From Alphaproteobacteria bacterium (GTDB lineage: Bacteria > Pseudomonadota > Alphaproteobacteria > Caulobacterales > Parvularculaceae): DNA of 40,256 bases. The DNA lies in contig JAUIMC010000023.1 in NCBI GenBank assembly GCA_030433215.1, forward strand, positions 1 through 40,256. Direction: 5' to 3'. The notes under the pieces were generated by a model. It searched no databases and had not been told where the DNA came from. It saw only the letters and a list, made by a program, of their open reading frames with translations. Shown here piece after piece: positions 14,198 to 40,256 of this stretch. The stretch's first letter is position 1. Each line of letters starts with the position of its first letter. Both the position numbers and the translations under genes were made by a program.

Positions 14198-14248
14198 CTT
14201 TCCCTCCCAATCTGCGGTTTCGCCCGCAGTCCTCTTGACGATTCTGGT

Positions 14249-14998: not shown

Positions 14999-15013
14999 GG
15001 GCCGGCCTTTCTC

Positions 15014-16021: not shown

Positions 16022-16024
16022 GGG

Positions 16025-17146: not shown

Positions 17147-17170
17147 TCTTACCCGACCCTTGAGAACATT

Positions 17171-17992: not shown

Positions 17993-17995
17993 GGC

Positions 17996-18529: not shown

Positions 18530-18541
18530 TGTGTTTGCTCC

Positions 18542-18949: not shown

Positions 18950-18952
18950 GGC

Positions 18953-20300: not shown

Positions 20301-20505
20301 CGTCTTCCGGAACAGGCGGCCTGTGGAAACTATACCGCCCCCGGACCTCAGGCAATGCGGCGTCATGGCCGCGTTCGCCAGTTTGGTAAACGATGCGCCC
20401 GGCCGCGTTGTCGGCGGCGCGGGCGGCGCCGAAGCATGATGATTGAAATCACATATGGTCATGACGCTCCGGCGAAGCACGAAACGGGGAGGCTTGGCTG
20501 CCTTG

Positions 20506-24422: not shown

Positions 24423-24764
24423 GAAGGCCTGTCCTTTAACATGCGCCGGCAATGCGGCCGCGATGATCCTGGTGAGAACCGGTTTCGCGATCTGGGCCGC
24501 GAAAAATTAGTTCGGAAGACCATTTTCATCAAGGGAATCAAACCGCCTCATGCTGCGTCGCAGCATTGCCTGTCGTTGTGGCGAAGCCAGTCTTGTCGAG
24601 GGCTTCTCATTTTGACGCAATTTTTCGCAGCTTTAGGGCGCTGCGGTCCGGCGGAACGTGATACCGGAAATTAGTAATGTAATATAACAATGTCGCCGGC
24701 CCTCGGCGGCTGGGCGATTGCGAACCGGGCGCGGTGAAAGGCGCCGGTTAAAATGGAGACACAA
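24423..24764. promoter_or_regulatory. Divergent control region between araC-type regulator and hydratase-lyase cluster
   Basis: These 342 bases are AT-richer than the genes around them and hold no credible coding frame. They contain the perfect dyad at 24550-24566, a TTGACG hexamer at 24614 and an AT-rich patch with TAATAT near 24680 that could be a -10 for the plus-strand cluster. Exact promoters cannot be fixed from sequence. Confidence 0.5.
24550..24566. promoter_or_regulatory. Perfect 8-bp inverted repeat, candidate operator
   Basis: ATGCTGCG and CGCAGCAT flank a single T, giving a 17-base perfect dyad. It lies midway in the divergent region between the AraC-family gene and the hydratase-lyase gene. 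A one-base centre rules out a normal RNA hairpin loop, so protein binding is more likely. AraC proteins usually bind direct repeats, so the cluster's MarR proteins are also candidates. Confidence 0.45.
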
Positions 24765-25604
24765 ATGGCTGAAGAACGGGCCGAAGAAGACACCGTAGCC
24801 TATGAAATTACGGATGGCGTCGCTTGGGTGAAGTTCAATCGTCCGGAGAAGCGGAATTGCATGAGTCCGAAGCTCAATCGGCAAATGCTGCGGGTGATCG
24901 AAGAGCTTGAATTCGACGACAGGGTCGGCGTGCTGGTGCTCTCGGGCGAGGGGACGGCGTGGTCCGCCGGCATGGATCTGAAGGAATATTTCCGGGAAAC
25001 TGAAGCGCTCGGCCTGAAAGGCACGCGGCATGCCCAGCGTGAAGCCTATGCCTGGTGGGAGCGACTGCGCTGGTATCAAAAGCCCACGATCGCCATGGTG
25101 AACGGCTGGTGCTTCGGCGGCGGTTACGGTCCTCTCTTCGCCTGCGATCTGGCTTATGCGTCGGAAGACGCTCAGTTCGGTCTTTCGGAGGTCAATTGGG
25201 GCATTCTCCCCGGCGGGGGCGCGACGAAAGTGGCCCAGGTTCTCATGCCGTTCCGCAAGGCGATGTATCACGCCATGGTTGGCGAGAATCTGACCGGCAA
25301 GGAAGCCGCGGACGCGGGGCTCGTTAATGAAGCGCTGCCGGCGGACAAGCTGAAAGCGCGCGTCACTGAAGTCGCGAACAAGCTGCTTGAGAAAAACCCG
25401 TGGACGGTGAAAGCCACCAAGGACGCCATGCGCCGCGTGGGTGAGATGACATACGAAAATGCAGAGGATTATCTCATTCGTGCGCAGGAAGCGCTGAACT
25501 TTTTTGACAATGAAGCGCGCAAGGAAGGCATGCGTCAATTCCTTGACGACAAGACCTACAAGCCTGGACTCGGCGCCTACGATCTGTCTAAGCAGAAGAA
25601 ATAG
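24765..25604 (+). CDS. p-Hydroxycinnamoyl-CoA hydratase-lyase (feruloyl-CoA hydratase/lyase type)
   Basis: This 279-residue crotonase-fold protein follows HCHL/Ech closely: FNRPEKRNCMSPKLNR, GMDLKEYFRE with Tyr75, KPTIAMVNGWCFGGG for the oxyanion hole, FGLSEVNWGILPGG with the acidic residue Glu142, and the tail GMRQFLDDKTYKPGL. HCHL converts feruloyl-CoA to vanillin and acetyl-CoA. The serine that I recall at position 123 of the Pseudomonas enzyme is Gly here (GYGPL). The ATG at 24765 follows GGAGACACAA; an ATG at 24753 would add four residues. It heads a five-gene plus-strand cluster. The family is well supported; the exact cinnamoyl substrate is not. Confidence 0.87.
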   Translation: MAEERAEEDTVAYEITDGVAWVKFNRPEKRNCMSPKLNRQMLRVIEELEFDDRVGVLVLSGEGTAWSAGMDLKEYFRETEALGLKGTRHAQREAYAWWERLRWYQKPTIAMVNGWCFGGGYGPLFACDLAYASEDAQFGLSEVNWGILPGGGATKVAQVLMPFRKAMYHAMVGENLTGKEAADAGLVNEALPADKLKARVTEVANKLLEKNPWTVKATKDAMRRVGEMTYENAEDYLIRAQEALNFFDNEARKEGMRQFLDDKTYKPGLGAYDLSKQKK

Positions 25605-25627
25605 GCCCGAAGGAGAGGGCGGTTATC

Positions 25628-26329
25628 GTGAAGTCAAATCTCCTATTGTTGCCGGGGCTGTTATGCGACGAAACGGTCTGGCGGGAGCAGGTCGCATTCT
25701 TCTCCGGCCGAGCCAATGTGGCGACGGCGGATTATGGCGATGCGGACCGCATTACCGGGATGGCGGAGGTCGCGCTTGCTGACGCGCCGCCGCGTTTCGC
25801 CCTGGCCGGACATTCCATGGGCGCGCGCGTCGCGCTCGAGGTGGTGCGGCTTGCGCCGGAACGCGTCGAGCGCCTGGCGTTACTCGATACGGGCATTCAT
25901 CCGGTGAAACCTAATGAACGCGAAAAACGCATGGAGCTTGTCACCCTCGCGCGGGAAGAGGGCATGCAGGCTCTTTGCGACGCCTGGCTGCCGCCGATGC
26001 TGCATCCGGACCGCCGAAACGATGAGAGCTTCATGGCGCCGCTTGTCGCCATGGTGAAACGGTCTACGCCGGAACGCTTTGCCACCCAGATTGAAGCGTT
26101 GCTAAATCGTCCGGGTACTGAGGCTGTGCTTTCCTCGCTTGAGTGTCCGCTCCTGGTCGGGGTCGGGCGGCAGGATGAGTGGAGCCCGGTTGATCAGCAC
26201 AAGGATATTTTGAATAAGACCGGCCGGGGGCGGCTGGCGGTTTTCGAGGATGCCGGGCATATGGCTCCGTTCGAGGCGCCGGAGTCTGTTAATTCTGCGC
26301 TTCTGGAGTGGTTTGACGGGACGGCGTAA
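25628..26329 (+). CDS. Alpha/beta-fold hydrolase
   Basis: This 233-residue hydrolase starts at a GTG 23 bases after the hydratase-lyase and has the nucleophile elbow GHSMG (Ser63), the oxyanion region LLPGLLCDETVW and a late histidine in DAGHMAPFE, with an acid in VGVGRQDEWSP. It is shorter than many members but complete. Tight spacing suggests a shared transcript with the hydratase-lyase. It could cleave an ester or thioester made in the pathway; nothing more specific is visible. Confidence 0.85.
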   Translation: MKSNLLLLPGLLCDETVWREQVAFFSGRANVATADYGDADRITGMAEVALADAPPRFALAGHSMGARVALEVVRLAPERVERLALLDTGIHPVKPNEREKRMELVTLAREEGMQALCDAWLPPMLHPDRRNDESFMAPLVAMVKRSTPERFATQIEALLNRPGTEAVLSSLECPLLVGVGRQDEWSPVDQHKDILNKTGRGRLAVFEDAGHMAPFEAPESVNSALLEWFDGTA

Positions 26330-26391
26330 ACTTAGGCTCGGGGCGCTTGGCGGAGAGGGCGTCAGCGAATCTGAAAGCCGGGGGAAGGCTA

Positions 26392-26868
26392 ATGTCGGTC
26401 GCAACAGTGGATAAAGGGGCCGCCTCGCGCGCGCTAGGAGAGGCGCCGCCGGGCCTTGAAACCCGGTTTCTCGACGGGCTGGTGGGCTACAGGCTGCGCC
26501 AGGCCTCGAATTCCTTCATGTCGGAATTCGCCGCCTCCATGGCCGATACGGGCCTTCGGGCGGTGCATGTCTCCATTCTTTCCGTGGTGGAAGAAAATCC
26601 CGGCGTTCGTCAGGGTGCTGTCGGCCAGGTGCTCGGCGTGGCGCGGGCCAATATGGCCCCCTTGGTCGCGGAGCTTGAAGCCATTGGTTTGTTGCGGCGC
26701 ACCACCGACAAATCCGACCGCCGCGCTGTCGCTATTCATCTGACCAAGAGCGGTCAGGCCATGCTGCGCAATTGCAAGGCGCGAATCGAGGTTCATGAAC
26801 GGCACGCGCTTCAGGGGCTGACCCGCAGTGATAAGGAAACATTGCTGCGCCTGTTGAAAAAGATATAA
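26392..26868 (+). CDS. MarR-family transcriptional regulator
   Basis: The 158-residue protein has the winged helix-turn-helix of MarR: VRQGAVGQVLGVARANMAPLVAELEAIGLLRR followed by the wing TTDKSDRRAVAIHLTKSG. The start ATG at 26392 follows GGGGAAGG; a longer frame from 26347 is less likely. MarR proteins of this setting usually repress transport and catabolic genes and are released by an aromatic or CoA-thioester ligand. It lies within the cluster between the hydrolase and the AAHS transporter, so autoregulation is likely. Confidence 0.9.
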   Translation: MSVATVDKGAASRALGEAPPGLETRFLDGLVGYRLRQASNSFMSEFAASMADTGLRAVHVSILSVVEENPGVRQGAVGQVLGVARANMAPLVAELEAIGLLRRTTDKSDRRAVAIHLTKSGQAMLRNCKARIEVHERHALQGLTRSDKETLLRLLKKI

Positions 26869-26900
26869 GGGGTCAGACCTCTTTTAGGGATGAAAATACT

Positions 26901-28232
26901 ATGAGCTCCAAAGACCCGCGCGAGATTCTCGCTCAGTCCTCCATGGGCACGTTTCAGATTATCGCTGTCGGCTTGTGTGTTCTTCTGAACGCTCTTGATG
27001 GTTTCGATGTGCTTTCCATCAGTTTCGCCGCGCCCGGGATTGCCGAGGAGTGGGGGATTCAGCGCGGCGCGCTCGGCATTGTCCTGTCGATGGAGCTTAT
27101 CGGCATGGCCGTTGGATCGGTGGTTCTCGGCGGGGTGGCGGATGTCATTGGGCGCCGGCCCACCATTCTCGGCTGCCTTGTTGTGATGGCAGTCGGCATG
27201 GCGCTGGCGGCGACAGCGAACGGCATCACCGTGCTTTCGATTTACCGCTTTGCGACCGGGCTTGGCATTGGCGGCGTGCTCGCCGCGACCAACGCCATGG
27301 TGGCGGAATATTCGAACGCCAAGCGCAAAGGGCTTTGCGTCACGATCATGGCGGCGGGCTATCCCATCGGCGCGATCATCGGCGGCACGGTCGCCTCGGT
27401 GCTGCTCGCTTATTTCGACTGGCGTTCGGTATTCATTTTCGGCGCCGCTGTGACCTTCTTCTTCATTCCCTTCATCTGGAAGCTGCTGCCTGAATCGATC
27501 GAATTCCTTGCGCAGAAGCGCCCGGCTGGCGCGCTTGAAAAGATTAACGCGACCCTGAAACGCATGGGACACGAGACCGTCTCTGCGCTGCCGGCGATTG
27601 AGGGCGAACCGCAAAAGATCGGCGTCGGGCGCCTGTTCGGTCCGCAGCTTATCCGCACAACAGCCTTGCTCACCTTCGCCTATTTCGCACACATCATGAC
27701 CTTCTATTTCTATCTGAAATGGATTCCGAAAATCGTCGTCGATATGGGCTTTGCGCCGTCGCTCGCAGGCAGCGTGCTCGTCTGGGCGAATGTGGGCGGC
27801 GCCACCGGCGCCATCCTGCTGGGCCTTTTAACGCTGCGTTTCGGCATGAAGGGGCTCGTTATCGGCGCCATGCTTTTCGCCGGCGCCATGGTGACCCTGT
27901 TCGGTCAAGCCAGCGCCGATCTGGCGCAATTGTCGCTGATCGCCTGTGTGGCGGGCTTCTTTACGAATGCTGCGATTGTCGGGCTCTATGCGATCTTCGC
28001 GCTCGCTTTCCCGACCGAAGTGCGCGCCGGCGGCACCGGTTTCGTTATCGGCGTCGGCCGCGGCGGCGCCGCGCTGGGGCCGATTGTGGCGGGCTTTTTG
28101 TTCGAAAGCGGCTTCAGTCTTGAGATCGTGGCGATCTTCATGGCGATGGGGTCGATCTTTGCGGCGGCGGCGCTGTTCTTCCTGCCGAGCAAGAAGCCCG
28201 ATATTCCGGCTGCGGAATCAGCGGCGCTCTAG
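26901..28232 (+). CDS. MFS transporter, aromatic acid:H+ symporter (AAHS) family
   Basis: This 443-residue twelve-helix transporter carries the AAHS hallmark ALDGFDVLSISFAAP in helix 1 (Asp33 and Asp36) and the loop motif GVADVIGRRPTILG between helices 2 and 3. PcaK and VanK are known members and import aromatic acids such as 4-hydroxybenzoate, protocatechuate or vanillate. It sits in the cluster with the hydratase-lyase and a MarR regulator, which supports uptake of a hydroxycinnamate or related acid across the inner membrane. The substrate is unproven. Confidence 0.9.
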   Translation: MSSKDPREILAQSSMGTFQIIAVGLCVLLNALDGFDVLSISFAAPGIAEEWGIQRGALGIVLSMELIGMAVGSVVLGGVADVIGRRPTILGCLVVMAVGMALAATANGITVLSIYRFATGLGIGGVLAATNAMVAEYSNAKRKGLCVTIMAAGYPIGAIIGGTVASVLLAYFDWRSVFIFGAAVTFFFIPFIWKLLPESIEFLAQKRPAGALEKINATLKRMGHETVSALPAIEGEPQKIGVGRLFGPQLIRTTALLTFAYFAHIMTFYFYLKWIPKIVVDMGFAPSLAGSVLVWANVGGATGAILLGLLTLRFGMKGLVIGAMLFAGAMVTLFGQASADLAQLSLIACVAGFFTNAAIVGLYAIFALAFPTEVRAGGTGFVIGVGRGGAALGPIVAGFLFESGFSLEIVAIFMAMGSIFAAAALFFLPSKKPDIPAAESAAL

Positions 28233-28252
28233 AGCAAGGGCCGGGTCTCTCT

Positions 28253-28900
28253 ATGGCTGTCGATCTTTACATGTGGCCGACTGGAAACGGCTACAAGATC
28301 CTGATCATGCTCGAGGAGTGCGGGCTCGATTACGTCATCAACTGGGTGAACATCTTCGAGGGCGATCAGTTCAAGGAGGAATTCCTCAATATCTCGCCCA
28401 ACAACAAGATGCCCGCCATTGTCGATCACGAGGCGGAGGGCGGCGCGCCGCTTTCCGTTTTCGAATCCGGCGCCATCCTTCAATATCTCGGGCGCAAGGC
28501 TGGCAAATTCTATCCTCAAGGGGAGCGGGCCCGCGTTGAAACCGACCAATGGCTTTTCTGGCAGACATCCGGTTTCGGCCCCATGGCCGGGCAGGCGCAT
28601 CATTTCGTCCATTATATGGAAGAGAAAATTCCCTACGCCGTGGAGCGCTTCACGAAGGAAACGAACCGGCTCTACGGCGTCATGGACAAGCGTCTCGCTG
28701 ATCGCGACTTTCTCGCCGGCGAGTATTCCATCGCGGATATGGCCGCGTTTCCCTGGGCGCGCCGTCATGACTGGCAGGGAGTGACCCTGGACGACTATCC
28801 CAATGTCAAAGCCTGGTTCGACCGCATTGCGGCCCGCGAGGCCGTCCAGCGCGCGCTCGCCATCAACCCGGAGAACACGCCGTCCTCTGCGTCGAACTAA
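28253..28900 (+). CDS. Glutathione S-transferase, Nu-class-like
   Basis: The 215-residue protein has a thioredoxin-fold N-terminal domain with the Nu-class WPTGNGYKILIMLEE segment (Thr10, Asn12), SPNNKMPAIVD and ESGAILQYLGRK, and the helical C-terminal domain (FLAGEYSIADMAAFPWARRH). Nu-class enzymes such as YghU and YfcG bind two glutathiones. As I recall, a Nu-class member in Novosphingobium removes glutathione from beta-aryl-ether intermediates of lignin. The gene closes the plus-strand cluster, 20 bases after the transporter. A role in ether cleavage or detoxification is inference. Confidence 0.87.
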   Translation: MAVDLYMWPTGNGYKILIMLEECGLDYVINWVNIFEGDQFKEEFLNISPNNKMPAIVDHEAEGGAPLSVFESGAILQYLGRKAGKFYPQGERARVETDQWLFWQTSGFGPMAGQAHHFVHYMEEKIPYAVERFTKETNRLYGVMDKRLADRDFLAGEYSIADMAAFPWARRHDWQGVTLDDYPNVKAWFDRIAAREAVQRALAINPENTPSSASN

Positions 28901-28921
28901 TGATCACTGTCTGAGAAATGC

Positions 28922-28935
28922 GAAGCGGCCGCTTC
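28922..28935. terminator. Possible bidirectional hairpin between convergent genes
   Basis: GAAGCGG and CCGCTTC form a perfect 14-base palindrome between the GST stop and the end of the minus-strand MarR gene. As RNA it would give a five-pair stem with a GGCC loop. It lacks a proper T-run, so termination is only a guess from position. Confidence 0.3.
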
Positions 28936-28943
28936 TTCGCGCG

Positions 28944-29432
28944 TCAGTCGTGAATCCGCCGCAGATAGTCGATCAGGGTTTTCACTTCCTGCTTTGAGAA
29001 GCGGCTCTTCAGCCATGATTCATGTTCATGGATGGCTTTTTTCGCTTCCCCCAGAACCTTGGCGCCGGTTGTCGTCAGTTTGAGCGTTTGCTTGCGCCCG
29101 TCGCTGGCTGACTGGCCCCGACGCAAAAGCCGGCGGCCCTCGAGGCGGTTGATGATCGCCATCACCGTCGCCCGGTCCATCCGAAGCTGCTTGGCGAGGT
29201 CGGTCTGGGCGATCCCCGGATGGTCGTCCACCAGCCACAGCACCGAGACCTGCTTTTGCGTCATGTCGAGATCCGCGAAGGTGTCCATGAAATGACGATA
29301 AACGGACGTATAGGCCAAGCGGATGTGAAAGCCGACAATATCGTCGATCTCTCCAAGATCATCCAAGTCATCAGCCAGCTGCGGATCAAATTTGGACTGC
29401 GCTTTTTTTGTCGTTTGATTGCCTTTTGTCAC
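28944..29432 (-). CDS. MarR-family transcriptional regulator, second copy
   Basis: The 162-residue protein has an unusually acidic N-terminal segment ([12 protein letters not shown]) before the MarR fold. The winged helix is clear: [32 protein letters not shown], then [16 protein letters not shown]. It is divergent from the dioxygenase gene at 29493, with only 60 bases between, so both promoters and the operator must overlap there. The likely job is repression of the dioxygenase, and perhaps of other genes in the cluster, with release by an aromatic ligand. Confidence 0.9.
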
Positions 29433-29443
29433 GCCCCGGTCCC

Positions 29444-29471
29444 TTGGCTCCCTCAGGGCCTACCATATACA
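29444..29471 (+). promoter_or_regulatory. Likely promoter of the first lignostilbene-type dioxygenase gene
   Basis: TTGGCT (29444-29449) and TATACA (29466-29471) are 16 bases apart, and would give a short leader before the GGAGAAAG ribosome site and the ATG at 29493. A dyad TTCTC-N6-GAGAA (29473-29488) covers the expected start of transcription and the ribosome site, a good place for the divergent MarR protein to bind. Confidence 0.4.
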
Positions 29472-29492
29472 CTTCTCTCCACGGAGAAAGCC

Positions 29493-30962
29493 ATGGCCCA
29501 TTTTCCTGATACGCCGAGTTTTACGGGATTCAACACCCCGTCTCGTATAGAGGCCGATATCGTCGATCTCGACGTCGAGGGCGCTATCCCAAGGGAAATG
29601 CATGGCGCGTTTTTCAGAGTCCAGCCAGATCCGCAATTTCCGCCTCTTCTTGGAGATGATATCGCCTTTAACGGCGATGGCATGATCACCCAGTTTCGGT
29701 TCGCGGACGGAAAGGTCAGCTTTCGCCAGCGCTGGGCCAAAACCGACAAATGGAAGCTCGAGAATGAGGCAGGGCGGGCGCTTTTTGGGGCTTATCGCAA
29801 CCCCCTGACCGACGATTCTTCCGTGAAAGGACAGATTCGCGGCACCGCCAACACCAATGCCTGGCTATATGGCGGAAAGCTCTATGCGCTGAAGGAGGAC
29901 TCGCCTGCGCTCGTCATGAATCCGGTGACGCTGGAGACGGAAGGCTATACGAAATTCTGCGGCAAGATGACCGGCGAGACGTTCACGGCGCATCCGAAAG
30001 TCGATCCGAAAACCGGAAATATGTGCGCCTTCGGCTATGCCTCTAAGGGTATTTTGACTCTAGACATGACGTATTACGAGATCAGCCCCGAAGGAGAGCT
30101 GCTCTACGAAATCTGGTTCGAAAATCCTTATTACGCGATGATGCATGATTTCGCGATCACGGAGGATTACGCCCTCTTTCATGTGGTGCCGTCGACGTCG
30201 AACTGGGAGCGCCTCGAAAAAGGCCTGCCGCATTTCGGGTTCGACACGACCATGCCGGTCTTTTTCGGCGTGTTGCCGCGCCGCAAGGGCGCGACGAAAG
30301 ACGATGTGCGCTGGTTCAAGACCGACACCTGCTTCGCCAGCCATGTCATGAACGCTTATCAAGAGGGCGAGCGCATCCATTTCGACACGCCCCAGGCGAA
30401 GAACAATATGTTCCCGTTCTTTCCTGATGTGCATGGCGCGCCGTTCAATCCGCAGGAGGCGTCAAGTTATCTGACCCGCTGGACCGTCAATATGGCGTCC
30501 AATTCAGACGCCTTTGAAAGCCAGACCAGGCTAACAGACATGTTCGGGGAATTCCCGCGCATCGATGACCGCTTCACGGGGCGGAAATACCGTCATGGCT
30601 GGATGCTGGTCATCGACATGGCGAAGCCTTGCGAGCTTCAGGGCGGCAGCGCCGGCGGGTTCCTGATGAATACGCTGGGCAAGGTCGATCACGAGACCGG
30701 CGAAGAACAGAAATGGTGGTGCGGGCCGGTATCGACCCTGCAGGAGCCGTGTTTCATTCCGCGCTCGAAAGATGCGCCCGAAGGCGACGGCTGGATCGTC
30801 ATGGTCTGCAACCGGCTTGAAGAACATCGCAGCGATCTTCTCGTCTTCGACGCACTTGAGATCGAAAAAGGCCCGATTGCGACAGTGAAGATTCCGATCC
30901 GTCTTCGTTTCGGGCTGCACGGCAACTGGGCGAACGCCGAAGACATCGGCATGGCCGCCTAG
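29493..30962 (+). CDS. Carotenoid cleavage oxygenase family, lignostilbene-alpha,beta-dioxygenase type
   Basis: This 489-residue protein has the four iron-binding histidines of the family in [35 protein letters not shown] and RFGLHGNW. Phe59, Tyr101 (FGAYRNP) and Lys134 (YALKED) fall exactly where I recall the phenol-binding residues of lignostilbene dioxygenase LsdA, and the length agrees. Such enzymes split the central double bond of hydroxystilbenes to two aromatic aldehydes, such as vanillin. The ATG at 29493 follows GGAGAAAG; an open frame extends upstream to 29220 but runs through the MarR gene. A related, cut-off gene lies at 38964. Confidence 0.88.
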
Positions 30963-32623
30963 GCAGGCTCTCCGGCGTCGCGCGCCCGCTGCGACAGCGT
31001 GGCTTCGTCTTTGGGCATTCGCCAGATGAGCGCGATGAGAAGCGCCACGATCACCGGTGCGACCCAGTAGACGCTGAGGATGGCGTCCCCGAGATTGCCC
31101 TCATTGACGTCGCTTATCATGCCCACAGCATAAGGCCCCAGCCCCATGCCTGTGATGGTCATCATCAGGATGTAGTAACTCATCACCGCGCCGCGCATGC
31201 GCGGCAGGACGAGATCGAGCAGCGACGCATAGATCGGCGGGAGCCACATGGTGAGGACCAGCGAGTAAAAGACGAACCACCCGAAAAAGCCCGCGAGCGT
31301 GGCGGCGTTGAATACGAAGAAAGCAAGGAAGGGCGAAAGCCCTAGCGCGAAGAGCGCCATATAGATGCGCCCGCTTTTGAAGCGCTGGTTCATCCAGTCA
31401 GAGGCGGGACCGGCGATCAGAGGGCCGGCGATGCCCAGCAGCGTGATCAGAATGCTGAATTGCACGGCGATGGCGGTCTGCGAGCCCTCGAAGTTCTGGA
31501 TGGCGTAGACCGCCGACCACGACATGACTCCGTAATTGACGACCGATTGCAGGGCGGCGATGGCGATCACCAGCGCCAGCGAGGGCTGTTTGATAATCAC
31601 GGCGAAAGCGGGCCGGTCGCGCAGGGCGAGGGTCTGCATCCAGCAGATGACGATATAGGCGCCGAGGCCGCTGATCGACCATTGCAATGCGTTGCCGGTG
31701 AGTTCGAGGCCGCCGAGCCTGACGGCGACCGGGTTTTCAGGGCGCAGGCTGTCGGTCCAATGCGCGAGATAGACGGCGAGCGAAGCGATAAGCGCGGCGG
31801 CGATGATGTTGATGATCCAGAGTTTCACGGGCGCCTTGCGGCGCGCGAATTCGAGCCACACAAAGCCCGGTAGGATTCCGACCAGCGTTTCAAGGCTGGC
31901 GCGAAACGGCGCCGGGTCGGGTTTGGAAAGCGCACCGTCGGAAAGTCCGCGCAAGGGCTCCGGCAGTTTCAGTAAAAGAAAGCTGAGGAGAATGCCGGGC
32001 GAGGCGGCGACCAGAAACGCCGCCTGCCAGCCTTTGAGGCCGAGCGGCGCGCCGCCATCCGCGAAGGCGCGCTCCCACCCGTCGGCGATGAGCGCGCCAA
32101 GACCGATGGCGCCGCCAAGGCCCAACGCAACGGCGACAGCCATAGCCGAGGTCACCATGCCGCGCTGTTTTTTCGGGAAATAGTCGGAGAGCAGCGACAT
32201 GCCCGCCGGCTGGGAGCTCGCCTCGCCGATGCCGACCCCGAGGCGGGAAATGGCGAGCGTGGCGAAGCTGTTCGCAAAGCCCGCGAGGCCGGTCATCACC
32301 GACCAGCCGAGGATCGATATGCTAAGCAACCTCGTTCGCACCCAGCCGTCCGCGAGGCGACCGAGCGGCAGGGAAAAGACGGAGTAAAACAGGCCGAACA
32401 CTGCGCCGTAGAGAACGCCCAGCTCTGCGTCGCCGATACCGAGATCTTCTCTAATGCGCGGCGCTAATATTGAGAGTATCTGACGGTCCACCATAGACAT
32501 CGCCGTCGTCATGGTGACGAGAAACAGCGCATACCACGCCATGGGGCCGCCGAGTTTTACGGTTTGCGCGCTGCTGCCGCTTCCGGGGCTGTCACCGGAA
32601 GTCTCACCCTCTTTGACCGTCAT
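30959..32623 (-). CDS. MFS transporter, spinster-like, with extra helices
   Basis: The 554-residue protein shows the MFS pattern: helix 1 [15 protein letters not shown], the loop motif [15 protein letters not shown], then [22 protein letters not shown], typical of spinster-like carriers of aromatic catabolic clusters. Between helices 6 and 7 there is an insert of about 110 residues with two more hydrophobic stretches ([19 protein letters not shown] and [12 protein letters not shown]), giving about 14 helices. It is the last gene of the operon with the aldehyde dehydrogenase and LigW-like genes, 18 bases after the latter. Its stop overlaps the opposing dioxygenase stop. Uptake or export of a lignin dimer or product is likely. 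Confidence 0.86.
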
Positions 32624-32641
32624 GTCCGTTTCCCCGCCTGC

Positions 32642-33697: not shown

Positions 33698-33704
33698 GAA
33701 TGGG

Positions 33705-35135
33705 TTATCCTTCGTGAACGGCTTTGGTGACGAGGCAGGCTTCGACGCCTTCGGGGCCGTCTTCCGACCCATGGCCGGACCATTTGACGCCGCCGAAGGG
33801 CGTGTCGGCACCGCCGATCATGGCGGTGTTGAGACCAAGCATGCCGGTTTCGATCTCGCGGGCGAGGCGTTTCTGGCGGGCCGGCTCTTGCGTCCAGGCA
33901 TAGGCGGCGAGACCGTAGGGCAGGCGGTTGGCTTCGGTGATGGCGTCCTCTTCCGTGCGGAAGGAATTACATAGCGCCACCGGGCCGAACGGTTCGGTGT
34001 TCATGATTTCCGCGTCCAGCGGCACGTCGGAGAGAACGCTCGGCGCATAGTAGAAGCCCTGATTGCCGATGCGCTCGCCGCCGCAATGGAGCCTGGCGCC
34101 TTTGTCTTTCGCGTCGCCGATCAGCTTTTCCATGGCGTCAGGGCGGCGTGGATTGGCCATAGGCCCCATCTGCACGCCCTCGTCGAGGCCGTTGCCGATC
34201 TTCAGCGCCTTGGCGCGTTCGGTAAAGCCGGAAACGAAATCGTCATAGATGTCTTCCTCGATCATGAAGCGCGTCGGCGAAACACAAACCTGCCCGGCAT
34301 TGCGGAATTTCTGCGGCACGACCGTATCGAGCACTTTTTCAAGGTTGCTGTCTTTGAAAACCAGCACCGGCCCGTGCCCGCCGAGTTCCATCGTTGTACG
34401 CTTCATATCCTCGGCCGCGAGCTTGGCGAGATGCTTGCCGACAACCGTTGAGCCTGTGAAAGACAGCTTGCGGATGATGGGCGAGGCGAGAAGATGGCGC
34501 GAGACTTCGTCGGGAACGCCATAGACGGCTTGCGCCACCTCCTTCGGCAGGCCGGCGTCGAGCAGCGCCTGCAAGACGCCGAGCGCCGAAGCCGGGGTTT
34601 CTTCCGCGGATTTCAGGATAACCGAGCAGCCCGCGGCGATCGGCGCCCCAAGCTTGCGGCCGGGATTGCCGATGGGAAAATTCCAGGGTGCGAATGCGGC
34701 GACGGGGCCGACAGGTTCTTTTGTGACTGTGGAGCGCATCCCTGCGGGGCGCACCAATGTGCGGCCGTAAATGCGCTGGCACTCGCCTGCATAGAAGTTG
34801 AACAGGCCCACATTCATCATCACTTCAATGCGCGCTTCATGGAAGGGCTTGCCTTCCTCCATGGTCGCAATGCGGGCAAGCGCGTCTGCGCGTTCGTTCA
34901 GGAGACGCGCCGCGCCCTGAAGAACGGCGGCCCGCTCAAGCGCTGGCGCATCGCGCCATATCCTGAAACCTTTCGCCGCCACGGCAAGCGCCCGATCGAG
35001 ATCGGCTGCGTTGGCGAGCGGCAATTCGCCGAGCGTTTCTTCGGTGGCGGGGTTGACCACGCGATGGGTCCTGCGGTCCCCGGCATAAATGCGCTCGCCG
35101 TCGATGATCATGTACAGTTCGGGATAATTGCTCAT
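33705..35135 (-). CDS. Aldehyde dehydrogenase, succinate-semialdehyde dehydrogenase-like
   Basis: This 476-residue ALDH has FAPWNFPIGNP (catalytic Asn), LSFTGSTVVGKHL, the general base in MELGGHGP, the nucleophile in NAGQVCVSPTRF and the late segment NTEPFGPVA. It groups with the SSADH/GabD-like ALDHs, a family that also supplies aromatic aldehyde dehydrogenases in catabolic clusters. It is the first gene of the operon with the LigW-like and MFS genes. Oxidising a formyl group, for example of 5-formylferulate or 5-carboxyvanillin, would feed the LigW-like enzyme; this substrate is inferred from context only. Confidence 0.93.
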   Translation of the reverse strand: MSNYPELYMIIDGERIYAGDRRTHRVVNPATEETLGELPLANAADLDRALAVAAKGFRIWRDAPALERAAVLQGAARLLNERADALARIATMEEGKPFHEARIEVMMNVGLFNFYAGECQRIYGRTLVRPAGMRSTVTKEPVGPVAAFAPWNFPIGNPGRKLGAPIAAGCSVILKSAEETPASALGVLQALLDAGLPKEVAQAVYGVPDEVSRHLLASPIIRKLSFTGSTVVGKHLAKLAAEDMKRTTMELGGHGPVLVFKDSNLEKVLDTVVPQKFRNAGQVCVSPTRFMIEEDIYDDFVSGFTERAKALKIGNGLDEGVQMGPMANPRRPDAMEKLIGDAKDKGARLHCGGERIGNQGFYYAPSVLSDVPLDAEIMNTEPFGPVALCNSFRTEEDAITEANRLPYGLAAYAWTQEPARQKRLAREIETGMLGLNTAMIGGADTPFGGVKWSGHGSEDGPEGVEACLVTKAVHEG

Positions 35136-35412
35136 CGTTCTTAGTCCTTGCTCTCAGGATCAAAGGCCGCGTGTCGGCGCCTGACGGAGGCTGGTTTATA
35201 AAACGCCGACCGATCCGGCGCGGTAGGCGGTAATTGTGTTCCGTCAGTGAAATCATTCCGAATATAGCTGAAAGACCAATGGGTTCTATGCCTATATGGC
35301 AGTCAGGTTGCCACCGGAGGTGAACCTCAAGAAGCGGCCGCCAAGGCCGCAGCGAAGAAATCTCTTGCGGGACGGCCTCTCAGTCGGCTCGGCTTGAAGT
35401 AGGGAGCCACTG

Positions 35413-36309
35413 ATGAAAGATTTTGCTGGGCGGACCGCCTTCATTACAGGCGGCGCGAACGGCATCGGGCTCGGGCTTGCGCGCGCGCTCATCGCAGAAG
35501 GGGCGAAAGTCGCCATCGCCGATATCCGTCAGGACGCGTTGGACCGGGCGCTCCAAACGCTCGACAGTCCGCAGGCGATTGGTCTGAAGCTGGACGTCTC
35601 GTCGCGCGAAGATTTCGCCGCCGCGGCTGATGAGGCCGAAGAAAGGCTCGGACCGGTTTCTCTGCTGTTCAACAATGCCGGAATCAATCTTTTTCAAACC
35701 ATCGACGAAAGCACCTATGACGATTGGGACTGGGTGCTCGGCGTTAATCTTCACGGCGTCATAAACGGGATACAGACGTTCATACCGCGCATGAAAGAGC
35801 GCGGTCAGGGCGGTCATGTGGTCAATACCGCCTCCATGGCCGCTTTTCTGGTCAGCCCGTCGCCGGGCCTTTACACAAGCGCGAAATTCGCCGTGCGCGG
35901 AATGTCGGAATCGCTGCGCTATTCCCTGACCTCATACGGCATTGGCGTCTCGCTCCTATGCCCCGGACTCGTAAAGAGCCACATCCATGCAAGCGATGAA
36001 CTTCGCCCGCAACATCTCGAAGCCAGAGGAAAACCTATCGACCGGGAGTTCAACGCCCAGCTCGCCAAGGTGCATGAGGCGGGGATGGAGCCGGATGAGC
36101 TCGCGGCCATCACCCTTGAGGCGATCCGCGCAAACAAGTTCTACATTTTCACGCATCCTGAATTCAAAGAGGAATTGAAGGAAGTGTTCAATGAAATCCT
36201 AGAAGAATTCCCTAAAGGCGAAGCGCCGGCGCACCGGATGGCCTTTGAACGCGGGCGCCGGGAAAATTACCGGCGCTTTCGGGAAGCTTCGCGCAAAGCG
36301 CAATCATGA
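35413..36309 (+). CDS. LigD/LigL-like SDR (C-alpha-dehydrogenase type)
   Basis: The 298-residue SDR has TGGANGIG, Asp after the second strand (VAIADIRQ) for NAD, NNAG, the active serine in VNTASMAAF and Tyr-x3-Lys in YTSAK. The stretch STYDDWDWVLGVNLHGVING, the later YGIGVSLLCPGLVKSHI and the C-terminal EAGMEPDELA and FYIFTHPEFKEEL strongly recall LigD, LigL and LigN, the Sphingobium enzymes that oxidise the benzylic alcohol of beta-aryl-ether lignin dimers. It is divergent from the aldehyde dehydrogenase gene. The subfamily is recalled, not computed; the substrate may be another diaryl compound. Confidence 0.8.
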   Translation: MKDFAGRTAFITGGANGIGLGLARALIAEGAKVAIADIRQDALDRALQTLDSPQAIGLKLDVSSREDFAAAADEAEERLGPVSLLFNNAGINLFQTIDESTYDDWDWVLGVNLHGVINGIQTFIPRMKERGQGGHVVNTASMAAFLVSPSPGLYTSAKFAVRGMSESLRYSLTSYGIGVSLLCPGLVKSHIHASDELRPQHLEARGKPIDREFNAQLAKVHEAGMEPDELAAITLEAIRANKFYIFTHPEFKEELKEVFNEILEEFPKGEAPAHRMAFERGRRENYRRFREASRKAQS

Positions 36310-36335
36310 GGCGTGGCGATTGATGGCGGGTTCAG

Positions 36336-36351
36336 GCGCGTGGAAACGCGC
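36336..36351 (+). other. Short perfect hairpin with GGAA tetraloop
   Basis: GCGCGT and ACGCGC pair around a GGAA loop, 26 bases after the LigD-like SDR stop. There is no T-run, so it could be an mRNA 3' end stabiliser or a weak terminator. It may also be chance in GC-rich DNA. Confidence 0.3.
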
Positions 36352-36441
36352 AACGTGTCGCATATAAAAAGCATTTCGCATCCGGCATTTTTGACGAAAA
36401 TCAGAAATTAGGTTGTCGAGAAAAGGCGAGGAGCGGGCATC

Positions 36442-37281
36442 ATGACAGATCAGGCTGTGGAAGACTGGAACGGCGAAGTCGGCGAGCGCTGGCTCAAAAA
36501 TCTCGATGCTTTCGAATCGATGATTTCGCCGGTGAATGCGGCGCTGATGAAGGCTGCGGCTTTCAAGCCGGGCGAGCGCGTCGTCGAAGTTGGGTGCGGC
36601 GGCGGCAAGAACGCTGTTGAGATTGCGCGCGCTGTGGCGCCGTCCGGCGAGTATCTCGGCGTCGACATATCTGAACTCCTCGTTGAGCATTGCAGAAAAC
36701 GCGCGGCCGAAGCCGGCGTCGAAAATGCATCTTTCCTTTGCGCCGATGCCGGGACCGCCAAACCCGACGCGCCGCGCGAGCGTGCTTTCTCGAGTTTCGG
36801 CGTGATGTTTTTTGAAAACCCGGAGAAGGCTTTCGGCAATATTCGCGGCTGGGTGAAGCCGGGCGGCGATTTCGTCTTTTCCTGCTGGGCGCCGCCGGAG
36901 ATGAACCCGTGGATCGGCATTGTCGGCGCGATCGCCGGCAAATATGTGGAGATGCTTGAACGCGATCCGGACGGGCCGGGGCCGTTCCGCATGGCCGATC
37001 CGGACGCTACGAAGGCGTTGCTCGAAAGCGCCGGCTGGAAAGATGTTGAGTGCACGCTCTGGCGCGGCGAGCAGCTTGTCGGCGGCGAAGGCGCGACGCC
37101 GGAGAGCGCCGCCGGGTTCGTGCTGGAGGCGTTGGCTATCGGCGAACCGGTGAAAGAGGCGGGCGGGCCTGAGCTTGTCGAAAAGGCGCGCGCTGACATC
37201 GTCGAGGCGCTGAAGCCGTTCCATAAAGACGGCTCCATTCGCATGGACGCCGCCTCCTGGATCGTGACTGCGAAAGCCTAA
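36442..37281 (+). CDS. Class I SAM-dependent methyltransferase
   Basis: This 279-residue methyltransferase has motif I VVEVGCGGGKNAVEIA, an acidic residue after the second strand (YLGVDISELLVEH), FSSFGVMFFENPEKAF and a post-motif VKPGGDFVFSCW followed by MNPWIG. It resembles many uncharacterised class I methyltransferases and is not obviously an O-demethylase or UbiE. It follows the LigD-like SDR and is convergent with the NTF2-like gene, seven bases away. A part in the aromatic pathway is suggested only by place. Confidence 0.82.
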   Translation: MTDQAVEDWNGEVGERWLKNLDAFESMISPVNAALMKAAAFKPGERVVEVGCGGGKNAVEIARAVAPSGEYLGVDISELLVEHCRKRAAEAGVENASFLCADAGTAKPDAPRERAFSSFGVMFFENPEKAFGNIRGWVKPGGDFVFSCWAPPEMNPWIGIVGAIAGKYVEMLERDPDGPGPFRMADPDATKALLESAGWKDVECTLWRGEQLVGGEGATPESAAGFVLEALAIGEPVKEAGGPELVEKARADIVEALKPFHKDGSIRMDAASWIVTAKA

Positions 37282-37288
37282 AGCGCTT

Positions 37289-37972
37289 TTATTTCATGTT
37301 CGCGCCCAGGACAGGATGCGCGCAGTGCAGCGGCATGTCCTGGCGATAGGGCCATGTCTGGCGCTGTTTCGGCAGGAGTTCGTCCGGACCGGTGGGGTTT
37401 TCCGGATAGGTTTTTTCCGCCGGTTGCAGATGCGCAATCGTATGCGCCCAGCCCTTGTCGTATTCGGCCTGCCATTGAACGACGTAATCGAGCCGCTTGA
37501 TCTTCCAGACCCCATCCTCGCGCACATAGTCGTTTTCATAGAGGCCGGCTTCGTAGAACTGATCCGGCAGGCCTTCGGGGTGATAGTCGCGGCTTTCGTG
37601 ATTGCCGCCGAGCAGCAGCGCCCGGAAGCGCGCCTTCGCGGTCTTGCGGTCGTCTGAGATCGTGACGATGTCCTGCATCTGGAAATGATCGAGCAGGAAG
37701 CCGTATTTCGGCCCCGGTTCGCCTTTCGTGAAAAAGTTCTGGAACCAGGTTTTGTAGAGGCGGGCGACGCCTTCATGGCCCTTGTAAATGCCGGAGAGGA
37801 AGATCGCTTCGCCGTCCTTGGCGAAGAGCTGGACCACCTCGTCATACTGGCAGAAATCCATGTAGTAGCCGTAAGCGTAATGGAGCTTGCGGATGGCGTT
37901 CACGTCCTCCAGCGCATCAACCCGATGCTGCAATGCGGCGAGTGCGGATTTCATCTCTTCGAGTTCACTCAT
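37289..37972 (-). CDS. NTF2-like (SnoaL-type) protein, candidate LdpA/LsdE-like diarylpropane lyase
   Basis: With the ATG at 37972 behind GGGAGGAATCC, the product has 227 residues: an N-terminal helix (MKSALAALQHRVDALEDV), then an NTF2 cone (IRKLHYAYGYYMDFCQYDEVVQLF, IYKGHEGVARLYKTWF, FLLDHFQMQDIV, ARFRALLLGG, GLYENDYVREDGVWKIKRLDY) and a disordered-looking tail. NTF2-fold enzymes of sphingomonads (LdpA/LsdE) release formaldehyde from diarylpropanediols, giving a stilbene that a lignostilbene dioxygenase then cuts. Here the gene is near a dioxygenase gene at 38964 and divergent from a LigD-like SDR. The fold is well supported; the lyase role is a hypothesis. Confidence 0.72.
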   Translation of the reverse strand: MSELEEMKSALAALQHRVDALEDVNAIRKLHYAYGYYMDFCQYDEVVQLFAKDGEAIFLSGIYKGHEGVARLYKTWFQNFFTKGEPGPKYGFLLDHFQMQDIVTISDDRKTAKARFRALLLGGNHESRDYHPEGLPDQFYEAGLYENDYVREDGVWKIKRLDYVVQWQAEYDKGWAHTIAHLQPAEKTYPENPTGPDELLPKQRQTWPYRQDMPLHCAHPVLGANMK

Positions 37973-38052
37973 GGATTCCTCCCGGATGGCGTTTATCCGC
38001 TTATTATGAATACCATCGACGCCAAGGCACACCACTGTGGAGGCGAGAGATC

Positions 38053-38967
38053 ATGGACTGGCAGGGAAAAACGGCCTTCATCACCGGCGGCGTTTCCGGC
38101 ATCGGGTTCGGCATTGCGCGCGCTTTCTCCGACGCCGGGATGCGCCTTGCGCTCAGCTACCGCAATGAAGCCTACAAGGAAGAGGCGGCGAAATGGTTCG
38201 CCGATCAGGGGCTAGAGGCGCCCTTGTTCCTCAAACTTGACGTGCAGGACCGTGCGCGTTTCGCGGAGGTCGCCGACGAAGTCGAGTCGTATTTCGGCAA
38301 GGTGCATGTGCTCGTCAACAATGCGGGCGTCAGCGTTTTCGGGCCGACTGATGAAGCGACCTATGACGATTACGACTGGATCATGGGCGTCAATTTCGGC
38401 GGCAACGTCAACGGGCTCGTGAATTTCATCCCCAAGATCAAATCCCATGACGAAGGCGGCCATATCGTCAATGTGGCGAGCATGGCGGCGTTTATTTCAG
38501 GGCCCCAGGCCGGGATCTACACCGCCAGCAAATTCGCCGTGCGGGGCCTGACCGAATGCCTGCGCTATAATCTCGCGCCCTATCATATCGGCGTGTCGCT
38601 GGTGTGCCCCGGGCTCACCAACACGAACGCCTGGGACTCGGCGCTGCGCCGTCCCGACGAGTTCAAGGAGAGCGGTCTCGGCGACGTCGACAAGGCGGAG
38701 CTTGAAAAATTCGGCGGCGCTTTCGAGCTCGGCATGGACCCGCGCGAAGTCGGCGACAAGGTGCTGAAAGGCATGACGGAAAATCGCGGGCTCATTCTCA
38801 CCCATCCCGAGCATGGGCCGGACTTCAAGGAAGTCTATGAAGACGCCATCGCAGCCTTGCCGGATGAGCCGGCGCCGGAAGGCCGTCTTGAAATCGAGAG
38901 ACTGCGCCGGGAAGCCAATCGCGCAGCCGCCGCCGGGAACAAGATCAATCTCGATGACCTGACTTAG
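38053..38967 (+). CDS. LigD-like SDR, second copy
   Basis: The 304-residue SDR has TGGVSGIG, a basic residue after the second strand (LALSYRNEA) that suggests NADP in place of NAD, NNAG, the active-site serine in VNVASMAAF and Tyr-x3-Lys in YTASK. ATYDDYDWIMGVNFGGNVNG and HIGVSLVCPGLTNT match the LigD-like SDR at 35413 in place and spacing, so the two are diverged paralogues. The ATG at 38053 follows GGAGGCGAGAG; the longer frame upstream from 37933 runs through the NTF2-like gene. It is divergent from the NTF2-like gene and its stop overlaps that of the second dioxygenase gene. Confidence 0.82.
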   Translation: MDWQGKTAFITGGVSGIGFGIARAFSDAGMRLALSYRNEAYKEEAAKWFADQGLEAPLFLKLDVQDRARFAEVADEVESYFGKVHVLVNNAGVSVFGPTDEATYDDYDWIMGVNFGGNVNGLVNFIPKIKSHDEGGHIVNVASMAAFISGPQAGIYTASKFAVRGLTECLRYNLAPYHIGVSLVCPGLTNTNAWDSALRRPDEFKESGLGDVDKAELEKFGGAFELGMDPREVGDKVLKGMTENRGLILTHPEHGPDFKEVYEDAIAALPDEPAPEGRLEIERLRREANRAAAAGNKINLDDLT

Positions 38968-40256
38968 GAGGCCGCCGCGTCCAGCTTGTCCTGCGAGACC
39001 CACCAGCCGTGAACCTGGGGGCGCAGGCGGTGCGGGATGGCGACCCGGGTGACCGGCCCGTCATTGATCGCGCCGGCGTTCAGGATCCAGGCCTCGTGCT
39101 CGAAGTCGTTCTCGCCGGTCTGGCGGTCAACGATCATGACAAGCCAGCCGGGATGTCCCTCTTCTGACGAGACCACATGAACCGGCTCGCTGAGGGAATG
39201 CGCCGGCGGCAGGGCCAGCGTATTCATGTCGCGGGTTTCCGGATTGATGCTGACCAGCATGTTGAACATGACGCCCACCGGGCCGCCGATGACGGGCGGG
39301 CCTTTCATCTCCGGATCGATGCTGAGATACCAGCCTTGCGTGTAAGGCCGTCCCTGATCGGCGTCGCGGAGGCGGCAGAGATCGCCTGAGGGGCCGAGCT
39401 TGGTTTCCTCGATCTCGTCGTCTTTGGGATCGAAAGACCAGCGCACGAACGCGCCCTTGATTTCCGATTGCGGGATGTCGATGCCGGAGGCCTGTCGGAT
39501 GAATCCGAATGCGTTGGTTTCGGTGATGTGCTGGTCGAGATGGATGCGGCCCGCTTCATCCTCGAAGCAATTCATGAAATGGAACGCCGATACGCCTGCC
39601 GGCCCCTTGATCCAGTGCATGTCCTTGACGTCGCCATAGCGGGGCATCACGCCGACCCAGCTTTCGCGGTCCTGTTCATGGACCCAGTGCACGCCGCCTT
39701 GTTTCAGGCGGTCAAGATCGCAGATTGTCGGAAAAACCGGAAAGACCGCGTAGTTCTCGGTGATGACAAAGTCGTGCATCAGCCCGCAATAGGGCGCGTC
39801 GAACCATTGTTCCTTGACGAGCTTGCCGTCCTTGTCGGCGATGCAATAGGCGACCTTGGTTGAGGCGAGCCCGTCCGCCTCATAGCCGAAGAAGAACATC
39901 TCGCCCGTATCGGGATCGATGCGCGCATGGGCGGTCATGGTTTCGGATTTCAGGACGCCTTCGAAATCGTAGGAGCCGATAGTGTCGAGCGTGATGGGAT
40001 CGACCCGGTAGGCGCGGCCGTCCTCCTTGGCCATGAGCAGCTTGCCGGCGTGCCAGATTGGCGTTGTGTTGGAGACGGTGCGGTCGACGCCCGCGACCGA
40101 CGGGTCGTCGGTGAACGGGTTCCTATAGCGGCCGAACAGGGCCTTGCCGGCCTTGACCTCTGCCTGATGGCGCGCCGTGTCCACATAGCGGATGTCGAAA
40201 TCAACCGAGCCGTCATCCTTGAACCACAGACGAGAGACCATGCCGTCGCCGGAGAT
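38964..40256 (-). CDS. Second lignostilbene-dioxygenase-type carotenoid oxygenase (5' end beyond window)
   Basis: The minus-strand frame is open from the window end to a TAA at 38964. It encodes about 430 residues from a point equal to residue 60 of the enzyme at 29493 (GDGMVSRLWF against [10 protein letters not shown]). The iron-binding histidines are in MTAHARIDPDTG, LMHDFVITENY, SAFHFMNCFEDE and RPQVHGWW. The pocket Tyr (FGRYRNPFTDD) and Lys (LLMAKEDG) are kept, which marks it as lignostilbene-dioxygenase-like. The start lies outside. It is convergent with the LigD-like SDR with overlapping stops and is separated from the NTF2-like gene on the same strand by that SDR. Confidence 0.85.
   Translation of the reverse strand: MSGDGMVSRLWFKDDGSVDFDIRYVDTARHQAEVKAGKALFGRYRNPFTDDPSVAGVDRTVSNTTPIWHAGKLLMAKEDGRAYRVDPITLDTIGSYDFEGVLKSETMTAHARIDPDTGEMFFFGYEADGLASTKVAYCIADKDGKLVKEQWFDAPYCGLMHDFVITENYAVFPVFPTICDLDRLKQGGVHWVHEQDRESWVGVMPRYGDVKDMHWIKGPAGVSAFHFMNCFEDEAGRIHLDQHITETNAFGFIRQASGIDIPQSEIKGAFVRWSFDPKDDEIEETKLGPSGDLCRLRDADQGRPYTQGWYLSIDPEMKGPPVIGGPVGVMFNMLVSINPETRDMNTLALPPAHSLSEPVHVVSSEEGHPGWLVMIVDRQTGENDFEHEAWILNAGAINDGPVTRVAIPHRLRPQVHGWWVSQDKLDAAAS

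Follow-up and report, generated by a model that had tools for sequence, protein, structure and literature searches.

The stretch analysed here, a contig of 40,256 nucleotides (JAUIMC010000023.1, hereafter C31) that in its entirety constitutes the window, belongs to an alphaproteobacterial assembly of 3.75 Mb in 37 contigs (GCA_030433215.1), and its latter half carries a run of genes that probably forms a catabolic island for lignin-derived dimers. Read from left to right, these encode a TonB-dependent receptor (-), an AraC-family regulator (-), a hydroxycinnamoyl-CoA hydratase-lyase (HCHL, +), an alpha/beta hydrolase (+), a MarR-family regulator (+), an AAHS-like carrier of the major facilitator superfamily (MFS, +), a glutathione S-transferase (GST, +), a second MarR regulator (-), the lignostilbene dioxygenase LsdD (+), another MFS carrier (-), the decarboxylase LigW (-), an aldehyde dehydrogenase (ALDH, -), a short-chain dehydrogenase/reductase (SDR1, +), a methyltransferase (+), an NTF2-fold protein (-), a second reductase (SDR2, +) and a second dioxygenase cut by the contig end (-). 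Family calls were made by Pfam, NCBIfam and PDB-sequence searches of the window's open reading frames (ORFs; Table 1). All families named in the original prediction, which had proposed from the letters alone a locus for stilbene, diarylpropane and biphenyl dimers, were recovered with strong matches, some of them needing correction. Its gene list left out the methyltransferase, the PcaD-like hydrolase, the AraC regulator and the TonB receptor, the last two of which lie partly or wholly outside the interval it covered (24423..40256); counterparts of all four are found in a related metagenome-assembled genome (MAG), Parvularcula NAT21.

Table 1. Features of the locus; positions refer to the window except where prefixed C14, a second contig of the same assembly
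Feature	Position	Strand	Evidence
TonB-dependent receptor	20554..23043	-	Pfam TonB_dep_Rec and Plug; 89% identical counterpart beside NAT21 cluster
AraC-family regulator, start codon uncertain	23487..24452	-	Pfam HTH_18, AraC_binding_2; 79% in NAT21
Hydroxycinnamoyl/feruloyl-CoA hydratase-lyase (FerB function)	24753..25604	+	NF006588 451 bits (cut-off 276); PDB 7xwc 458 bits
PcaD-like alpha/beta hydrolase	25628..26329	+	Pfam Abhydrolase_6; PcaD model 70 bits, below cut-off 256
MarR-family regulator	26347..26868	+	Pfam MarR
AAHS-like MFS carrier, aromatic acids	26901..28232	+	Best match TIGR00895 337 bits, below cut-off 419
YfcG-like GST	28253..28900	+	PDB 4l8e and YfcG 222-241 bits; NF010579 233 bits, below cut-off 332
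MarR-family regulator, divergent from lsdD	28944..29432	-	Pfam MarR_2; same slot and strand in Novosphingobium and Sphingobium loci
MarR-lsdD divergent intergenic region	29433..29492		Aligned in window, M. flavus, NAT21 and one more genus genome
Lignostilbene dioxygenase, LsdD/NOV1 type	29493..30962	+	PDB 5j53 867 bits, 6xm6 866 bits; NF053778 879 bits (cut-off 800)
MFS carrier	30959..32623	-	Pfam MFS_1; 49-56% counterpart in same slot in sphingomonads
LigW-type 5-carboxyvanillate/5-carboxyferulate decarboxylase	32642..33697	-	PDB 4inf 606 bits, 4qs5 603 bits, 4icm 257 bits
ALDH in FerD position	33705..35135	-	Pfam Aldedh 495 bits
LigD/LigO-like SDR (SDR1)	35413..36309	+	PDB 3ioy 398 bits; YxxxK and GxxxGxG present
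Class I S-adenosylmethionine-dependent methyltransferase	36442..37281	+	Pfam Methyltransf_25; 89% in M. flavus, 77% in NAT21
LdpA-type gamma-formaldehyde lyase (NTF2/SnoaL_4)	37289..37972	-	PDB 8abt 317 bits; LdpA clade; ORF readable from 38035
LigD-like SDR (SDR2), divergent from ldpA	38053..38967	+	PDB 3ioy 242 bits, 4ya6 206 bits
Lignostilbene dioxygenase, LsdA/NOV2 type, N-terminus cut by contig end	38964..40256	-	NF053780 755 bits (cut-off 650)
PcfL-like NTF2 protein	C14:76610-77329	-	About 19 kb past window contig end

Enzymes that point to lignin dimers

By score, residues and tree alike, the assignment of the first dioxygenase to LsdD is orthology-grade. Its two best-scoring structures are those of NOV1 (5j53) and of LSD4/LsdD from strain SYK-6 (6xm6) (PMC8191317; this and the other papers cited are drawn on in excerpt), and in alignment columns (SYK-6 LSD4 numbering) it retains the iron-binding histidines H167, H218, H284 and H476 together with F59, Y101 and K134, the published catalytic set, as well as Ser283, a residue kept in SYK-6 LSD2, LSD4 and NOV1 (PMC8191317). 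The LsdA-type assignment of the truncated second dioxygenase is likewise judged orthology-grade: it groups with LsdA-position genes of sphingomonads in a quick tree (10 rows, 100% by the Shimodaira-Hasegawa-like approximate likelihood ratio test, SH-aLRT), in which the LsdD group has 94% support; the first protein belongs to that group and the second to the LsdA group. All four histidines, Y101 and K134 are retained; a loss of Lys134 from this protein, considered at one point, was ruled out by a column check. A Phe stands immediately before the iron ligand His284, with a one-residue alignment gap at position 283, and SYK-6 enzymes with Phe283 are reported to favour lignostilbene over DC-A stilbene (PMC8191317).

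Both dioxygenases score far lower on the NCBIfam apocarotenoid model than on the lignostilbene models, and this bears on the notion that the window holds an ordinary monoaromatic pathway, for ferulate and vanillin, beside unrelated dioxygenases of carotenoid type. The HCHL, ALDH, AAHS-like carrier and MarR genes are indeed typical of hydroxycinnamate clusters, but with both dioxygenases over the lignostilbene cut-offs (Table 1) and with LdpA and LigW, enzymes of dimer breakdown, in the same run, such a reading is hardly credible.

The NTF2/SnoaL_4 protein matches 8abt, which we take to be LdpA and which its depositors named 'SnoaL-like'. In a tree of 43/95 sequences, to which a long-branch warning applies outside the LdpA and PcfL groups, it lies inside the LdpA clade, apart from PcfL, with support of 100/99. 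At the positions separating 70 LdpA-type from four PcfL sequences it has the LdpA letter in 23 of 23 cases and the PcfL letter in none; of 52 positions invariant in the LdpA family it keeps 51, and its identity to two proteins of Novosphingobium lentum is 65% for the LdpA-type one and 45% for the PcfL encoded beside ferD. Identity, clade and diagnostic positions thus rule out PcfL as its identity. Novosphingobium genomes encode a pair of NTF2 lyases, of which LdpA acts on diarylpropanes and the ferD-adjacent PcfL on phenylcoumarans (PMC11323797). Elsewhere in the host genome, a region of another contig (C6:97-123 kb) holds ten further NTF2/SnoaL_4 matches, about 29-39% identical to LdpA and including one 444-aa frame with two domains, along with a lignostilbene-type dioxygenase (60% to LsdD), a TonB receptor and two amidohydrolases. 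Two genes with GFA (glutathione-dependent formaldehyde-activating) domains occupy 1862-2773 of the window; formaldehyde would be a product of LdpA, but 35 kb separates them from its gene, and the domain is a broad one.

Both reductases match LigD-type C-alpha-dehydrogenases, as predicted (for SDR1, 4ya6 at 253, 4y98 at 218 and 4yae at 213 bits, besides the scores in Table 1), and neither has an NCBIfam name over cut-off. A divergent SDR gene neighbours that for LdpA in 59 of 70 loci, these being loci of close relatives of the window's LdpA-type protein in a collection of named genomes. Since SDR2 is the divergent neighbour of ldpA, matching the adjacent ldpB and ldpA of SYK-6 (SLG_12640/12650; PMC12997858), it is probably LdpB, a name taken from position alone.

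The prediction of a LigW-like decarboxylase held, its scores of 603-606 bits on 4inf and 4qs5 standing well above those on other amidohydrolases: its nearest relatives are 5-carboxyvanillate decarboxylases, and gamma-resorcylate decarboxylase reaches just 183 bits. No NCBIfam model match for LigW was obtained at 1e-10. The adjoining ALDH is 73-78% identical to full-length LigW-adjacent ALDHs of N. profundi, N. organovorum, N. lentum and Parasphingopyxis marina, and 74% to those on two plasmids; it meets no NCBIfam cut-off, the nearest curated model being succinate-semialdehyde dehydrogenase (432 bits, below 646). The label 'FerD' is therefore based on its position next to LigW and on the identity found in that slot, and not on a curated model. 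In the published beta-5 route, LsdD yields vanillin and 5-formylferulate, FerD forms 5-carboxyferulate, and LigW produces ferulate, a pathway that has been rebuilt in vitro with N. aromaticivorans counterparts (PMC11323797).

Among the remaining genes, the HCHL matches a feruloyl-CoA hydratase/lyase structure (7xwc), and the GST, formerly described as Nu-class-like, proves closer to YfcG-type chains (222-241 bits) than to 5uun, presumably a Nu-class enzyme (139 bits). The methyltransferase found only distant matches in the PDB search; in Parasphingopyxis marina, a 53% identical counterpart is the neighbour of a BaeA-like gene. The TonB receptor would probably serve outer-membrane uptake for the locus. 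Positions 29403-29480, in the divergent region of the MarR and lsdD genes, are nearly invariant in an alignment of four genus genomes, and the intergenic region is a probable shared operator or promoter. A search for perfect 7-base inverted repeats, as a MarR operator, found none upstream of lsdD, any such repeats being confined to the AraC-HCHL stretch.

Counterparts, continuation and spread of the locus

The nearest relatives of the host are Marinicaulis flavus (now Hyphococcus luteus, Parvularculaceae), placed by genome search in the same genus, and NAT21. The host is not itself a sphingomonad, but a member of the Parvularculaceae close to M. flavus and thus of a different order. The gene set recurs in the same relative order in both relatives, on contig NZ_PJCH01000011.1 in the case of M. 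flavus (LsdD 93%, LigW 90% and LdpA 94% identical). 'Maricaulis flavus' is also the one non-sphingomonad among 82 organisms credited with PcfL, LsdD, FerD and LigW (PMC11323797), and the PcfL counted there is probably the PcfL-like paralogue described below.

The M. flavus locus differs from that of the window in two respects: its LsdA-type gene is reduced to a C-terminal piece, and, as in NAT21, two GST-like genes stand between SDR1 and the methyltransferase, where the window has 132 bases. The first of these carries Asn14 and Ser15 and the second Ser14, residues reported for BaeA and BaeB, respectively (PMC6369299), and they follow each other in the order BaeA then BaeB; the likeness is thus one of reported residues, not of sequences. 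The pair has no NCBIfam name at 1e-30, its best match in the window's genome is 37%, and a BaeA-like gene (at least 60% identical) accompanies 22 of the 70 LdpA loci. The absence of this pair from the window and the shortened LsdA-type gene of M. flavus are what one would expect of a decaying mosaic, in which a formerly complete beta-O-4/beta-1/beta-5 island now handles monomers and stray stilbenes only. Such decay is unlikely here, given that the reading frames of the window are open with catalytic residues kept, that its LdpA, LsdD and LigW proteins are 90-94% identical to those of M. flavus, and that all but one of the LdpA-family invariant positions are in place.

The island does not stop at the contig end. 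A second contig, C14, ends in coding sequence for 44 residues that align with the start of the second dioxygenase in NAT21 and in one further relative, which leaves a gap of about 14 residues (about 42 bases) to the truncated gene on C31. Immediately next to its LdpA cluster, M. flavus has a 13.4-kb counterpart of C14 sequence, in a single stretch with 85% nucleotide identity; in NAT21 the similarity to C14 is divided over several segments, none of which includes the DesA-bearing part. On the basis of this dioxygenase N-terminus and of the matches in the two relatives, C14 and C31 adjoin, and the island continues on C14. There it encodes DesA (889 bits, cut-off 800), benzoylformate decarboxylase (678 against 493), a pyrroloquinoline quinone (PQQ) alcohol dehydrogenase (663 against 480) and the beta subunit of a class III ring-opening dioxygenase (529 against 317), as well as the PcfL-like NTF2 protein. 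The latter belongs in the NTF2 tree to a clade of seven, sister to PcfL, with members in M. flavus, NAT21, sphingomonad MAGs and one gammaproteobacterial MAG; the M. flavus member is 53-55% identical to three Novosphingobium PcfL proteins. Of the PcfL/LsdD/FerD/LigW set, the window has LsdD, LigW and the FerD-position ALDH, and C14 no more than a PcfL-like protein of the sister clade.

A five-gene core, MarR(-) LsdD(+) MFS(-) LigW(-) ALDH(-), recurs in order and orientation, in some cases with intervening genes, at five sphingomonad loci (N. lentum, N. profundi, N. organovorum, Novosphingobium RL4 and Sphingobium V4). An AAHS-like carrier lies near MarR in all but the V4 locus; it is encoded on the - strand in N. 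lentum and on the + strand in the other three. Because gene order is kept in M. flavus and NAT21, and the core in Novosphingobium and Sphingobium, the locus is more than a chance assembly. Published gene lists extend the likeness to N. aromaticivorans DSM12444, where Saro_0793-0802 comprises ligO, ligN, pcfL, ferD, ligW and lsdD (PMC11323797, PMC12997858): in both cases LsdD, LigW, a FerD-position ALDH and a LigO/LigD-like SDR are clustered, but where N. aromaticivorans has PcfL beside FerD, the window has LdpA, the LdpB-like SDR, an LsdA-type gene and the methyltransferase. In Sphingobium (Parasphingobium) SYK-6, the functions in question had been thought scattered, and their gathering in the window peculiar to it. 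This view has to be abandoned, since lsdA, ldpB, ldpA, ldpC, ferD, ligW2 and lsdD all lie within SLG_12580-12860 (Table 1 of PMC12997858) and several Novosphingobium carry the same cluster. Judged by locus tag, the same functional set thus occupies one SYK-6 region, with ferB, ligW and ligD elsewhere and with phenylcoumaran opening assigned to PhcC/D/F/G; the eight LSD genes of that strain are spread over its genome (PMC8191317).

Within the host's own lineage the genes are rare. LsdD occurs in four of 62 family genomes and four of 28 genus genomes, its own included, and LigW in four of 299 order genomes, all of one genus (E-values of 1e-150 or better for LsdD and 1e-140 for LigW, weaker homologues being uncounted). 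In comparison with four sphingomonad genomes, identity is 73-77% for LigW and about 71-72% for LsdD, as against 67-70% for IMP dehydrogenase in the same four; within the genus the relation is reversed, IMP dehydrogenase being 97% and LigW 90-91% identical to M. flavus. Sphingomonad counterparts with 79% (LsdD) and 82% (LigW) identity are encoded on plasmid NZ_CP081002.1 of Sphingobium sp. V4 (1.25 Mb, typed as conjugative), in a comparison that took in two of five sphingomonad plasmids with more than 70% identity. This plasmid shows the MarR-LsdD-MFS-LigW-ALDH order of the window, but has PcfL and BaeA/BaeB-like genes and, in the 31 kb compared, neither an LdpA nor an LsdA-type gene. Patchy spread, the identity pattern of LigW and LsdD against IMP dehydrogenase, and the relative on a conjugative plasmid make horizontal transfer of the island, in one direction or the other, likely. 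Base composition was rejected as a mark of foreign origin, since the G+C content of the locus (0.600) falls inside the range of nine other stretches of the genome (0.597-0.636).

Proposed pathway

On the strength of protein families, residues, clades, gene order, contig adjacency and distribution, we propose that the locus is a catabolic island serving the beta-1 and lower beta-5 branches of lignin-dimer breakdown, probably laterally acquired, a reading to which we assign a probability of about 0.8; the reactions in the host, the regulation and the transfer are inferred from these observations. The general claim of a locus for lignin-type dimers is borne out by the LsdD and LsdA groups, the LigD-type SDRs, the LdpA clade and LigW, and its content would comprise a beta-1 (diarylpropane) module, a lower beta-5 (phenylcoumaran) module and a feruloyl-CoA hydratase-lyase. 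The biphenyl part of that claim does not stand, as no LigX, LigZ or LigY was found among the ORFs scanned in 23487-40241 and LigW is the only element common to that pathway; judged from its gene content, the locus has no biphenyl-specific element. Outside it, the genome has five LigB-family places, not resolved for LigZ.

In the beta-1 branch, the LdpB-like and LigD-like SDRs would convert diarylpropanediols back and forth between alcohol and ketone at C-alpha. From the erythro form, LdpA would release the gamma-carbon as formaldehyde, leaving a stilbene that would be split into two vanillins by either LsdA or LsdD. In the lower beta-5 branch, LsdD would split a phenylcoumaran-derived stilbene into vanillin and 5-formylferulate, which the FerD-like ALDH may oxidise to 5-carboxyferulate and LigW decarboxylate to ferulate; following CoA activation, the hydratase-lyase would shorten feruloyl-CoA to vanillin. 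This order differs from that first proposed, in which side-chain shortening preceded decarboxylation, and follows the published sequence of LsdD cleavage, FerD oxidation and LigW decarboxylation to ferulate, with shortening last (PMC11323797). Should the host also perform the upper beta-5 step, the opening of phenylcoumarans, the PcfL-like paralogue about 19 kb past the contig end would be the candidate. Substrates would be imported by the carriers and the TonB receptor, and expression governed by the MarR and AraC proteins. Elsewhere the genome encodes LigM (812 bits, cut-off 580), gallate dioxygenase (714 against 412) and LigB-type dioxygenases over their cut-offs.

A different substrate class may be envisaged for the same dioxygenases, namely plant stilbenoids of the resveratrol, piceatannol and pinosylvin types, LsdD and LsdA cleaving the free stilbenes and the other enzymes handling the aldehydes. 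NOV1, the nearest solved relative of LsdD, does cleave resveratrol (PMC11323797, PMC8191317). Nevertheless, LdpA, the LdpB-like SDR and LigW would then have no role, and SYK-6 LsdD, whose Ser283 the window protein shares, has a ten-fold lower specificity for resveratrol than it has for lignostilbene or DCA-S (PMC8191317). We thus regard stilbenoids as improbable main substrates, somewhat more so than decay of the island.

Several observations weigh against a dimer-degrading, laterally acquired island. A search with PF13607, to which FerA presumably belongs, returned for a SYK-6-type FerA in the host genome one weak match (37 bits, a 346-aa frame). PcfL is absent from the FerD-adjacent slot that it fills in Novosphingobium, and the PcfL-like protein is 52% identical to Novosphingobium PcfL. 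Residue 59 of the LsdA-type enzyme is Ile and not Phe, as it is in two Parvularculaceae-type relatives, and the M. flavus counterpart is just a C-terminal piece. The AAHS-like carrier, GST and ALDH fall below curated NCBIfam cut-offs. As for transfer, the margin between core-gene identity (67-70%) and that of the locus genes (71-77%) is small, and the G+C content is unexceptional.

Significance

Clustering of these genes is not in itself new, as illustrated by the published locus tags of the SYK-6 region and by the single non-sphingomonad named in 2024 as having the enzyme set (PMC11323797). A search of the literature, outside which most subscription papers lay, found no account of the island itself, of its combined beta-1 and beta-5 content, of how it is distributed in the genus or of its relation to genes on a conjugative plasmid; the sole statement it yielded on the locus outside sphingomonads is one sentence in the excerpted text of PMC11323797.

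Further genes of the window stand apart from these subjects. A minus-strand run at 13313-19486, encoding a metallo-hydrolase, two SDRs, two zinc alcohol dehydrogenases, two cupins and a glyoxalase-fold protein, constitutes a separate catabolic set and is followed by a sulfotransferase gene (19575-20480), and a 371-aa protein with a phage-lysozyme domain is encoded at 3469-4584 (-).

Pathways for lignin dimers are known almost exclusively from sphingomonads, and a recent review seeks pathways with signs of horizontal transfer, which are expected to be easier to move into production hosts (PMC12997858). A compact island common to two orders, the core of which also occurs on a conjugative plasmid, answers to this description. 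For the specificities of LdpA, PcfL and the PcfL-like proteins, natural comparisons are offered by the three lyase clades and by the three Parvularculaceae variants, which have or lack the BaeA/BaeB-like pair, the LsdA-type gene and DesA. A bolder proposal, which we hold to be clearly less likely than not, is that a plasmid-derived lateral island may have given rise to a full degrader of dimers and monomers outside the Sphingomonadales, in which the PcfL-like proteins would form a third clade of gamma-formaldehyde lyases, either with a substrate of their own or having taken over the opening of phenylcoumarans.

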